From NCBI GenBank assembly GCA_001789205.1, contig MFYT01000092.1, positions 1-5,232 on the forward strand: a stretch of DNA of 5,232 nucleotides, read 5' to 3'. The position numbers and the translations under genes were made by a program. Of the stretch, positions 76 through 5,232 are shown piece by piece. Positions within the stretch are counted from its first letter, which is position 1. The number at the start of each line of letters is the position of its first letter. The DNA is from Candidatus Raymondbacteria bacterium RIFOXYA2_FULL_49_16 (GTDB lineage Bacteria > Fibrobacterota > OXYB2-FULL-49-7 > XYB2-FULL-49-35). The notes under the pieces were generated by a model that saw only the letters and a list, made by a program, of their open reading frames with translations, made no database searches and was not told where the DNA came from.

Positions 76-864
76 ATGACGCCTACTCGACAAAGACCCA
101 ATCTTGGAACCATAATTATTGCTTCGGTTGTTATTCTGGGGACCGGTGGGGTCCTACTGGCAACCCAAATGAGTGATCGCATCGAGACATCCGCGAAAAA
201 GTCCTATGTATTTAAGACCTATTTGAAGGGGGATGATATTACAATCAAGGCGGCAAATGACAGCATTGTCACTTTAACAGGGATAGTGTCCGAATGGTCG
301 CACCGGTCATTGGCCGAAGACGCCGTTGCCGGGCTTCCCGGAGTAAAGCGCGTGGACAACAAGCTGACGGTCAAAGGGGGACAGCCTGATAAAAACTCCG
401 ATGCTTGGATTAACATGAAAGTTAAAACCATGCTCATGGTCCATCGGAATGTGAGCAGTCTTAAAACGGATGTGGATGTAAAAGATGGTGTAGTTACCCT
501 GCGCGGACAGGTGTCAAGCGAAGCGCAAATAGAATTAACAACGGAATATGTCAGGGATATTGACGGTGTTAAAAGCGTTAAGAACGATATGACCTTGGAA
601 AAAAACAAGAAAACAACCGTTGAAAAAATAAGCGGCGATATTGATGACGCCTCTATTACGGCACAGGTGAAAATAGCATTGCTGTTTCATCAATCAACGA
701 GCGCCGTTAGTATCAATGTTGAGACAAAAAACGGCGTCGTTACGGTACGCGGTGTGGCAAAAAATGGCGCCGAGAAGGATTTGGTGGGCAAACTTGTAAC
801 AAACATACATGGTGTGAAAGACGTAAAAAATGAAATAACAATCGAACAGGTTTCTCTGAAATAG
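76..864 (+). CDS. Triple BON-domain envelope protein
   Basis: The product has 262 residues. It has a short basic N-terminus and then one hydrophobic segment at about residues 11-30, either an uncleaved membrane anchor or a signal peptide. The rest is three tandem BON domains at roughly 34-100, 109-176 and 190-258. Each ends in the family's pattern: a strand with V(V)T(L/V)xG, a helix, then a GVKxVxN-type turn and a final strand (GVKRVDNKLTV, GVKSVKNDMTL, GVKDVKNEITI). BON domains (as in OsmY and secretins) are periplasmic and thought to contact phospholipid or membrane surfaces. OsmY-type members are induced by osmotic and stationary-phase stress. The start is supported by TAAGGAG at 64-70, five bases before the ATG. 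It is followed by an 84-bp gap with a strong hairpin, so it may be partly uncoupled from the genes downstream. Domain calls are firm; the stress role is inferred from family. Confidence 0.9.
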   Translation: MTPTRQRPNLGTIIIASVVILGTGGVLLATQMSDRIETSAKKSYVFKTYLKGDDITIKAANDSIVTLTGIVSEWSHRSLAEDAVAGLPGVKRVDNKLTVKGGQPDKNSDAWINMKVKTMLMVHRNVSSLKTDVDVKDGVVTLRGQVSSEAQIELTTEYVRDIDGVKSVKNDMTLEKNKKTTVEKISGDIDDASITAQVKIALLFHQSTSAVSINVETKNGVVTVRGVAKNGAEKDLVGKLVTNIHGVKDVKNEITIEQVSLK

Positions 865-2826: not shown

Positions 2827-4101
2827 ATGGCGCGATCCTTCCTTTCGGGCTCCCAACGGAAAAAACCCATGCTGTCCAAATGGCCCCGCACTATATTGAC
2901 CTTTAACTGCGGTAGTTCGTCACTGACCTTTAAAACCTTTACAGTCAAAGCCGGGAATGATATTGAGGAAATATTCATAGGCAAAGCGCATAGAGTAGGG
3001 GTCAAGGGCAGTGAGCCTTCGTTCATCGAATATACATTCTCCGGCAGGAGGGAAAAGGTGGAAACGCCACTGCCCAACCACGGTAAGGCCGCGTTGATGG
3101 TCTTGAAACAAATAGATGACCTGAACATCAAGATTGATTATATCGGCCACCGCTGGACGCTCAGCGCGGGCCATTTTACAACCGCGTTCCTTAACAGTAA
3201 ACTTCTGAACACGCTGAAGGCCCTTGTTCCGCTTTTCCCAATCCATCACCCCGCCATGATGAGCGTTATTGCCCAGTGTTTAAAAGGGTATCCCGGCATT
3301 ATCCAGTATGTCACTTCGGACAACGCCTTCCATTCTACCATTCCCGAATATGCTTCTACGTATGCCTTATCCCGGTCGATCATTAAGAAATGCGGCTTCC
3401 GGAAATATGGCTTCCACGGCTTGTCTTATAATTTTGTCGTAAAACAGGCGGGTACATATCTGAAAATACCGGCATCCGAGCTTAAAATAGTCGCCTGCCA
3501 TCTTGGTACCGGGGGTTCCAGCGTTGCCGCCATCGACCGGGGCAGATCCATCGACACGTCAATGGGTTACACGGCACTGCAGGGTTTGGTCATGAGTACC
3601 CGGGCCGGCGATATCGATCCCATGCTGACGATATATCTGATGATCACCTTTGGTCTTCGATCCGACGAGGTCGCCAACTTGCTCAATAAAAAAAGCGGAT
3701 TGCTCGGACTTTCAGGTTTTTCCAGCGACATTCGGGACATAATAAAGCGTATTCCCGGCAAGGAAAAACAGGCCGAGATTGCACTCAATATGTATGTTCA
3801 TCGATTGAAAAAATATATCGGCAGCTATGTTACGCTTCTGGGCGGCGCCGATGTAGTGCTCTTTACCGACGATATCGGACTCCACAACTGGCTAGTCCGG
3901 GAAAAAGCTTGCCAGGCCATGGATTGGTGCGGTATAATCCTTGATCAGGACCGGAACCGTCAAGCGATTGGGGATACCGTTTCCGTTATCAGCCCTCCAG
4001 GCTCGAAAGTTACGATCCTAGCCATGCCCACAGAAGAAGAACTTGTCATATGCTGGGACGGGATCCGGTTGCTGATGGAGGCGGATAATGCTGCTGATTA
4101 A
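2827..4101 (+). CDS. Diverged acetate/propionate kinase family protein
   Basis: The product has 424 residues with the acetate-kinase (ASKHA) fold throughout. Known family reaction: acetyl phosphate + ADP to acetate + ATP, cytosolic. Residues kept, by comparison with Methanosarcina thermophila AckA: Asn27, Ser30 and Ser32 (NCGSSS), Arg109 (GHR), His140 (PIHHP), Asp165 (DNAFH), His197 (YGFHG), Arg259 (STRAGDIDP) and the Glu404/405 region (PTEEEL). Residues changed: the HGGE after GHR is LSAG (112-115), HLGNG is HLGTG (225-229, so the usual Asn is Thr228), and GGIGEN is DDIGLH (348-353), part of the nucleotide-binding region. It may be active with altered nucleotide or acyl preference. The start at 2827 has a weak ribosome site and gives a longer N-terminus than usual; ATG 2869 (residue 15) is a real alternative. 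Its end overlaps the next gene by 14 nt. Confidence 0.85.
   Translation: MARSFLSGSQRKKPMLSKWPRTILTFNCGSSSLTFKTFTVKAGNDIEEIFIGKAHRVGVKGSEPSFIEYTFSGRREKVETPLPNHGKAALMVLKQIDDLNIKIDYIGHRWTLSAGHFTTAFLNSKLLNTLKALVPLFPIHHPAMMSVIAQCLKGYPGIIQYVTSDNAFHSTIPEYASTYALSRSIIKKCGFRKYGFHGLSYNFVVKQAGTYLKIPASELKIVACHLGTGGSSVAAIDRGRSIDTSMGYTALQGLVMSTRAGDIDPMLTIYLMITFGLRSDEVANLLNKKSGLLGLSGFSSDIRDIIKRIPGKEKQAEIALNMYVHRLKKYIGSYVTLLGGADVVLFTDDIGLHNWLVREKACQAMDWCGIILDQDRNRQAIGDTVSVISPPGSKVTILAMPTEEELVICWDGIRLLMEADNAAD
4077..4081 (+). promoter_or_regulatory. Ribosome binding site inside the first kinase gene
   Basis: GGAGG lies 6 nt before the ATG at 4088, within the last codons of the upstream kinase gene. It fixes the start of the second kinase-like gene and supports translational coupling of the two. 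Confidence 0.8.
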
Positions 4102-5155
4102 ACCAGACCCTCCTTATATCCGCTGGTGTTTAACGGAAAACGGAAATTGCGTCGAAAAAAAATGTGCTTTCAAAGACAACTGGCGGGAAAGAATAGCCAT
4201 TGATATCGCTAATGCCAAACAACTGACGGCCATAGCGTACCTGCTTTACCACGGCGGTGATGATATAAGCGAACCGGCGTCCAGATTGACGGTAAAAACA
4301 CTTGAACAGGTTAAGAGGGCCGTAAAATTATTCCCCGAGTCGAATCAGATTATCTACCGGTCCGCCTCCTATCTGCGTACCCGGATTGCCGGTAGCGACC
4401 ATGTCCTTCTCTGCGATACAGCCTTCTTTAACAGTTTGCCGGCGGCGGCGGGTTTTTATGCGCTTTCGTCTGGGCTCCGGGAAAAAGGAATGCGCCGGTT
4501 CGGCGGTTTTGGCTTGTTCCATGAATGGGTCTGGAGCCAGGTTCGGACGCGCCTCACCAAAAAAAAGAAAAGACTGGTCAGTATTTACCTGGGCAGCCAC
4601 CCAAATATTGCGGCGATAAAAGACGGTAAACCGTACGAAACCACGATCGGCTTTACCCCGGTTGAAGGGATCCCTTCTATTACGGGCTGCGGCGACATTG
4701 ACCCCACGATCCTGTTTCAGCTACAATCTATTGGTATGTCTTTAAGGGAAATCAATACGTTGTTCACCCGGGACAGCGGTTACCGGGGATTACTCGGTAA
4801 GAAATGCGCCATGATTGATATCATCAAAGACGGCGCTGCCGGCAATGTGTCGATGGTCCGCAGGATGCTTCGGTACCACATTGTCCGCTATGCCGGAGCA
4901 TTTATCGCCGCCCTGGGCGGTATAGACGCTTTCGCGTTCCTTACCGAACATCCGGGCGAAACATCACAATTTATTGGTGAGGTTCTCAATGACTTTAATT
5001 TTTTAAATGTTAAATGGTCGCCAGTCCGGGGTGGCGCCATTCCTTTTCGGGACATGACCGGCGCCGGTTCGGCGGCAAAAATATATTGTATCGGTTGTTA
5101 TGATTGGAAAATAATGCAAGACCATGTTGTATCATTCTTGAACAAAGGAGATTGA
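4088..5155 (+). CDS. Catalytically degenerate acetate kinase paralogue (pseudokinase)
   Basis: The product has 355 residues, shorter than the roughly 400 usual for acetate kinase; about 40 residues are missing before the HGG motif. Homology is clear in YHGGD (54-58), LLCDTAF (107-113), MRRFGG-FG (135-142), KDGKPYETTIGFTPVEG (178-194), GDIDPTILFQL (202-212) and AALGGIDAFAFL (274-285). Catalytic positions are replaced: the NxGSSS loop by KPDPPY (5-10), the Arg of GHR by Leu52, the His of DTAFH by Phe114, the active-site His of YGFHG by Phe141, HLGNG by YLGSH (167-171), the Arg of TRSGD by Gly200, and the C-terminal Glu pair by Ala330-Lys331. The frame is intact and the hydrophobic core kept, so it is not a decayed gene. 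It probably acts as a partner or regulator of the upstream kinase. A poly-Lys patch (158-161) is coded by an A8 run. Confidence 0.85.
   Translation: MLLIKPDPPYIRWCLTENGNCVEKKCAFKDNWRERIAIDIANAKQLTAIAYLLYHGGDDISEPASRLTVKTLEQVKRAVKLFPESNQIIYRSASYLRTRIAGSDHVLLCDTAFFNSLPAAAGFYALSSGLREKGMRRFGGFGLFHEWVWSQVRTRLTKKKKRLVSIYLGSHPNIAAIKDGKPYETTIGFTPVEGIPSITGCGDIDPTILFQLQSIGMSLREINTLFTRDSGYRGLLGKKCAMIDIIKDGAAGNVSMVRRMLRYHIVRYAGAFIAALGGIDAFAFLTEHPGETSQFIGEVLNDFNFLNVKWSPVRGGAIPFRDMTGAGSAAKIYCIGCYDWKIMQDHVVSFLNKGD
5144..5150 (+). promoter_or_regulatory. Strong ribosome binding site before the terminal short ORF
   Basis: AAAGGAG, inside the last codons of the pseudokinase gene, lies 7 nt before the ATG at 5158. 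It indicates that translation is meant to continue into a further gene. A second site-like stretch, AAGGAGG, occurs at 5194-5200 with no ATG, GTG or TTG after it before the window ends. Confidence 0.65.
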
Positions 5156-5157
5156 TT

Positions 5158-5220
5158 ATGGTTAACCTGGCAATGAGTCATCATCAAGGAGACAAGGAGG
5201 TTTCCCCGAGCAAGATTTAG
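5158..5220 (+). CDS. 20-codon ORF: leader peptide or broken start of the next gene
   Basis: It starts 2 bp after the pseudokinase stop, behind AAAGGAG. The translation is MVNLAMSHHQGDKEVSPSKI and then TAG at 5218-5220. It is hydrophilic, with no signal or membrane segment. It could be a genuine short peptide, an upstream leader controlling a gene just beyond the window, or the N-terminus of a larger protein interrupted by a nonsense or frameshift change. Phosphoketolase is the classical partner of acetate kinase in such clusters, but nothing in these 20 residues is diagnostic. Only 12 bases follow it in the window. Confidence 0.35.
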   Translation: MVNLAMSHHQGDKEVSPSKI

Positions 5221-5232
5221 CCGAATCACTCG

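Follow-up and report, generated by a model that had tools for sequence, protein, structure and literature searches.

What could be gained by keeping, directly behind an acetate kinase gene and overlapping it, a second gene of the same family that has lost its active-site residues? The question is raised by a stretch of 5,232 nucleotides from Candidatus Raymondbacteria bacterium RIFOXYA2_FULL_49_16 (contig MFYT01000092.1), hereafter called the window, which carries both genes on its forward strand. Gene A (positions 2827 to 4101, 424 amino acids) encodes an acetokinase with a complete set of catalytic residues that looks like the Entamoeba (Pi/PPi) type, and gene B (4088 to 5155, 355 amino acids) encodes an acetokinase pseudokinase, its putative partner subunit. 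A reading of the letters alone, referred to below as the sequence-only reading, had described a 14-nt overlap with the ribosome site of B inside A, and both points were borne out: the overlap is exactly 14 nt with no frame damage in either gene, and a Shine-Dalgarno sequence, GGAGG (about 4076 to 4080, forward strand), lies within gene A, 7 nt before the ATG of B at 4088. In a profile search both products matched PF00871 (gathering score 22), A with 331.7 bits (E 6e-99) and B with 137.2 bits (E 7.5e-40). The conserved N-terminus of A starts near residue 20, and by its sequence the gene may truly begin at the ATG at 2869. Among the other open reading frames of the window that were searched, only the upstream BON-domain protein (76 to 864) fell into a clear family, and an Rfam search of the window returned nothing at gathering score.

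We looked at gene A with respect to the known acetate kinases. The residues that had been listed for it (Asn27, Arg109, Asp165, His197, Arg259 and Glu404/405) were all seen in the sequence, and the AckA catalytic residues N7, S10, R91, H123, D148, H180, R241 and E384 are present. The sequence-only reading had moreover taken A for an ordinary acetate kinase, and here it has to be corrected, since sequence and tree group A with the Pi/PPi-dependent acetate kinase of Entamoeba histolytica (EhACK). The ADENOSINE motif GG[IV]GEN is missing from A, with FTDDIGLH in place of FTGGIGEN, and the PHOSPHATE2 motif contains one extra Gly (HLGTGGSS), so that the protein is not an ATP-type AckA. The canonical, housekeeping AckA of the genome sits on contig C8 and has the usual HLGNGSS and FTGGIGEN; motifs and tree rule out gene A as an ordinary AckA. 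The best PDB match of A is EhACK itself (4h0o; 315 bits, 43% identity). Throughout the 50 aligned A-type sequences, Asp replaces Gly/Ala330, Gly331 is never found and GG[IV]GEN is absent, while Gly239 is changed to Ser or Asn in nearly all of them. Together with the additional Gly of PHOSPHATE2, these replacements are hallmarks of EhACK (PMC5517563). N7, S10, S12, R91, H123, H180, R241 and E384 are retained in every one of these sequences that covers the position, and D148 is retained except in one frame-broken copy. In a tree of 98 acetokinases (SH-aLRT support), all A-type sequences and EhACK were separated from canonical AckA with a support of only 80, and EhACK nested inside the clade made up of window-type A (A1) and the lone A of Anaerolineae (As) with a support of 98–99.

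EhACK uses Pi/PPi and not ADP/ATP, and is distinguished by an altered ADENOSINE motif and by one additional Gly in PHOSPHATE2 (PMC5517563). Gene A is like EhACK in the extra Gly, the loss of GGIGEN, the Asp at 330, the catalytic residues and the clade to which it belongs; it is unlike EhACK in having Asp-Ile where the latter has Gln323-Met324. Gene A therefore appears, as far as motifs and tree can tell, to transfer phosphate with Pi/PPi rather than ADP/ATP. We infer this specificity with some caution, since the position of Gln323 is occupied by Asp or Thr in the bacterial A enzymes, which makes PPi use less than certain, and no published measurement of PPi use was found for any bacterial A. 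A membrane pyrophosphatase encoded in the same genome lends it some help, in keeping with a PPi economy. Lone acetate kinases of Anaerolineaceae with the EhACK marks have already been flagged as possible PPi-ACKs, their PPi use being left open, by Dang and Ingram-Smith (2017, PMC5517563), whose section on these enzymes mentions neither a paired pseudokinase nor other phyla. These candidates (Flexilinea, Leptolinea, Longilinea, Ornatilinea) have the same A-type signature and belong to our As group but, unlike the window's A, have no B gene beside them.

The acyl pocket was then considered. The acetate pocket (V93, L/I122, F179 and P232) is intact in most A proteins. In the window's A, Val93 is changed to Thr, Pro232 to Ala and HGG to LSA, changes that are partly common to its nearest relatives, from Elusimicrobia; in the window clade including the latter, V93 becomes T, C or G, P232 becomes A or G, HGG is altered and N124 is replaced by His. 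The small residues at V93 and P232, together with the His for N124, suggest that the acyl substrate of this clade may be larger or different, and acetate may perhaps not be the substrate of the window's A.

Gene B has diverged in another way. In M. thermophila numbering, N7 is K, S10 is P, S12 is Y, R91 is L, H123 is S, H180 is F, R241 is G, E384 is D and E385 is W, D148 being the sole key catalytic residue kept. The losses that had been read from this gene (phosphate loop, arginines, histidine and C-terminal glutamates, with the fold kept and the frame undamaged) are all found again in the site table and the predicted structure, and they extend to its homologues: the N7 residue, R241 and E384 are absent in 17 of 17 window-type B (B1) proteins. 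These proteins have acquired invariant residues of their own (L122 to E, H152 to F, and a Met to Ser, Ser197 in the window, each in 17/17), and E385 is changed to W in 15 of the 17. The dimer-interface pocket is incompletely preserved in B (R309 is missing from B1), which counts against the A-B dimer proposed below. An AlphaFold2 model of B made with 16 homologues (pLDDT 86.4, pTM 0.88) aligned over its whole length with acetate and propionate kinases (Z 34–38), the next structural matches including TsaBDE and pantothenate kinase structures (Z about 12–13). The dN/dS of B between relatives was mostly 0.08–0.19, a sign of purifying selection; for one pair of copies inside a single genome it was 0.39, compared with 0.35 for A. 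As judged from its sequence, gene B is a maintained pseudokinase with a predicted complete fold and not a decaying copy.

We examined how widely the two genes occur together. A scan of species genomes with an alignment of A yielded 80 loci, to which the two loci of our own genome were added, as a second, divergent A-B pair is found there on contig C38. The A signature was present in 51 loci (the two own ones included), with B directly downstream in 38; 12 intact A-type loci without B all belong to Chloroflexota, and one further locus is cut by a contig end. Outside Chloroflexota, B lay directly 3' of A in 37 of 37 intact A-type loci, these having been fetched by similarity to A. We also carried out a census that was independent of B, in which a DNA signature of the PHOSPHATE2 loop of A was searched for in 285 Omnitrophota, 343 Planctomycetota and 167 genomes of our own phylum. 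It detected 19 real A genes (16 in Omnitrophota, 1 in Planctomycetota and 2 in our own phylum), each followed by B; the two sets overlap slightly. Whether the genes are always adjacent, a question left by the sequence-only reading, can be answered positively for both of these sets and negatively for the 12 Chloroflexota loci. In nearly all pairs B starts at most about 26 nt from the stop of A. The phyla bearing B, about a dozen in all, include Elusimicrobiota, Omnitrophota, Acidobacteriota, Ignavibacteriota, Planctomycetota, Sumerlaeota, Kiritimatiellota, Lentisphaerota, Verrucomicrobiota, Spirochaetota and Myxococcota, and A stands alone in most Anaerolineae. B1 and B2 form one clade (support 99, with long branches), and distances among the A proteins parallel those among their B partners (r = 0.80 for 15 pairs, 0.91 for 19 pairs), a signal that can arise from shared ancestry alone. 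The A-B pair seems to predate the split into the two locus types described below. A scan of genome contigs with the window's B alone gave no relatives; patterns derived from one divergent sequence were too narrow, and the alignment of A succeeded.

No natural A-B fusion was seen. Long open frames (about 790 amino acids) among the same-phylum matches were considered as such fusions and rejected, as they are canonical AckA with extra N- and C-terminal regions. In extended AckA proteins of this phylum (open frames of about 780–890 amino acids at loci L013, L014, L016, L018, L020 and others) the N-terminal part resembles a cyclic-nucleotide-binding domain, and the one of L013 carries, judged by eye, a C-terminal PduL-like phosphotransacylase. 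Such AckA fusions are possibly one-protein Pta-Ack enzymes with a sensor.

Two types of loci can be distinguished by their gene order. Type I, that of the window, is A-B-FolE2L, where FolE2L is a homologue of FolE2. Of the 16 external type I loci, 15 contain it, 3' of B in all except one, where it precedes A; L042:2658-3440 and L043:10297-11079 are examples of the gene. The copies from different phyla are 57–79% identical to the first-listed copy and score 82–88 bits against PF02649, far under the FolE2 equivalog cut-offs. When aligned to Neisseria gonorrhoeae FolE2, FolE2L has Tyr at C147, Phe at H159, Gln at E201 and Val at E216, H246 alone being kept among these five residues, which we take to be the metal and catalytic residues of the gonococcal enzyme. 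FolE2L is, on this alignment, a well conserved FolE2 subfamily without the usual catalytic residues. Beyond FolE2L, no wider conserved neighbourhood of type I was found, and there was no conserved link of A-B to pta or phosphoketolase.

In the window itself, the contig stops 77 nt past B. A probable Shine-Dalgarno sequence, AAAGGAG (5144 to 5150, forward strand), and an ATG (5158 to 5160) presumably mark the start of the FolE2L gene that normally follows B, and directly behind them a repeated element begins, a probable group II intron, whose 5' end occupies 5161 to 5232 on the same strand and runs to the contig end. These last 72 nt recur at six other contig ends. The partner end lies on contig C100, on which the genome's only FolE2 homologue is the last gene (minus strand). 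The 3' end of the element found there resembles domain V/VI of a group II intron (RF00029, 25.6 bits, E 0.004, under the gathering score of 40). Read across the element, the ATG continues in frame with AAT GAC GAA CAG and onwards (codon 2 on being from C100), to give MNDEQRFLADVGM, which matches the N-terminus of FolE2L from other genomes. The frame at the junction and this match make the order A-B-intron-FolE2L likely in this genome, an order that joins two contigs where the assembly itself stops at the element.

The element was also seen at contig ends C100, C102, C104, C97, C95, C66, C46, C84, C87, C99, C86, C85 and C29. All seven readable 5' junctions end with ATG followed immediately by GTTAACC, and most of them are preceded by a Shine-Dalgarno-like stretch. 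On the 3' side, 6 of 8 junctions are continued by an in-frame reading frame that starts with the next codon (signal peptides, a receiver domain, FolE2L). The element, probably a group II intron, would thus be inserted exactly between the ATG and the apparent codon 2 of genes, which means that splicing would be needed to supply these genes with their start codon. Insertion at start or stop codons occurs with some bacterial introns; we found no paper on such insertion. OsmY-like BON-domain proteins are encoded both in the window (76 to 864) and by a minus-strand frame of C100 (1537 to 2361 of the reverse-complemented locus L120), and their position on either side of the presumed A-B-FolE2L cluster suggests a stress island.

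Type II, that of the C38 pair, has the order YgeY-like M20 hydrolase, A, B, and is in many cases accompanied by a divergent V4R/XylR-type sigma-54 regulator. The M20 hydrolase gene near A2-B2 (L006:10069-11304 in this genome; also L098:1428-2672) is degenerate in our genome, its product scoring below the cut-off of PF01546; the homologue in Pontiella (L079) scores well, and a close relative in a Spirochaetales MAG is degenerate by eye. In the region L006:1607-9061, the C38 pair lies upstream of, and on the same strand as, a STAS-like frame, a protein joining PhoU to a low-molecular-weight phosphatase-like domain, and genes resembling PstS/PstC/PstA/PstB, all judged by eye except PhoU and seen in this genome only. 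A link of this pair to phosphate is possible, and would be consistent with a Pi-using kinase.

What, then, does B do for A? TsaD-TsaB (YgjD-YeaZ), in which a degenerate ASKHA protein partners an active ASKHA subunit, offers a precedent by function and not by membership, differing from A-B in family, reaction and dimer surface. The ATP-dependent AckA, TdcD and PduW, which have the fold and PF00871 in common with A and B, are symmetric homodimers; they differ in that A lacks the ATP motif and B the catalytic residues. In the homodimers of solved acetate kinases, domain II makes most of the dimer contact, and the active site sits in the cleft that separates it from domain I (PMC3475010). Four B proteins of Omnitrophota (235–252 amino acids, possibly stemming from a single event) consist of domain II only and are encoded beside an intact A; they have retained the dimerisation domain without the active-site cleft, which points to dimerisation. 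In full-length B, domain II is 1.35–1.65 times as conserved as domain I, compared with 1.07–1.17 times in active kinases. Taken together, the domain-II-only forms, the conservation of domain II and the coupling of the genes are the strongest, indirect, support for an A-B dimer. We propose, with a probability of about 0.6, that A and B form an acetokinase heterodimer in which A would be the sole catalytic subunit and would move phosphate between an acyl phosphate and Pi/PPi, as the Entamoeba enzyme does. The acyl phosphate would be acetyl phosphate in most relatives; in the clade of the window it would possibly be one whose acyl group is somewhat larger. B, an acetate kinase descendant keeping the dimerisation domain, would have turned its old active site into a non-catalytic, possibly ligand-binding site, and would stabilise or regulate A much as TsaB does for TsaD. 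The parts of this proposal that we infer are that A and B associate physically, that A is specific for Pi/PPi and that B has a regulatory role.

Against a heterodimer, an A-type kinase works without B in Entamoeba, as the purified enzyme, and apparently in Anaerolineae too, and a pathway or a stoichiometric regulator could also explain why the genes stay adjacent. In this alternative, A would be a Pi/PPi acyl kinase working as a homodimer, and B would be a protein apart, homodimeric or monomeric, that acts as a coupled regulator or ligand sensor and makes only transient contact with A or with other proteins. The new invariant residues of B1 at the former active site, which suggest a ligand site, would suit such a role, as would the A-only lineages; the 19/19 linkage with overlapping genes, the mirrored distances and the B forms devoid of an inter-domain cleft fit a structural partner better, and we regard a separate regulator as unlikely. 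Nor is B likely to be a decaying duplicate kept by chance under relaxed selection. It does evolve faster than A (mean identity of 0.38 compared with 0.55 in type I), but a dN/dS well below 1, the spread over about a dozen phyla, the residues invariant in B and the predicted complete fold make this explanation highly improbable; the occurrence in a single genome and the relaxed selection for which the sequence-only reading had proposed to look are not what we observed. On the whole that reading is right in its observation, and its interpretation is partly supported.

A further alternative, compatible with the heterodimer, concerns the reaction: A-B, with FolE2L in the window type, may be a new kinase or phosphatase for another acid or phosphate, for which the acetokinase scaffold was recruited. 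The altered pocket of the window clade, the company of a FolE2 homologue stripped of catalytic residues in type I and of an M20 hydrolase with a sigma-54 regulator in type II, and the missing link to pta or phosphoketolase speak for it, but most A proteins keep the acetate pocket and all catalytic residues, so that we consider another substrate possible and on balance doubtful. More tentatively still, A, B and FolE2L may form a three-protein complex, distributed over different phyla, that would regulate or make use of acetyl phosphate/PPi or a related metabolite, a suggestion that is rather improbable.

We found no report of a pseudokinase partner for EhACK, nothing relevant on acetate kinase pseudoenzymes or heterodimers and no description of the A-B pair in the literature searched. 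The putative A-B two-part enzyme is apparently so far undescribed, and to this extent the claim of the sequence-only reading that no such system was known stands; it does not extend to lone A-type kinases, already known from Anaerolineaceae and flagged as possible PPi-dependent enzymes (PMC5517563). The acetate kinase is a textbook homodimer, and a conserved pair of an active and a dead subunit would be a new architecture for this enzyme and a clean case of pseudokinase-partner evolution. EhACK has been reported as the only known PPi-dependent acetate kinase, and the A clade adds bacterial candidates by the dozen, some with a partner and some alone, in which the residues setting PPi or ATP use, and whether B matters, become testable. 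If the reading as a three-protein complex is true, a PPi-type acetate kinase system would for the first time be known from bacteria, and it would point to a bacterial source of the Entamoeba enzyme.
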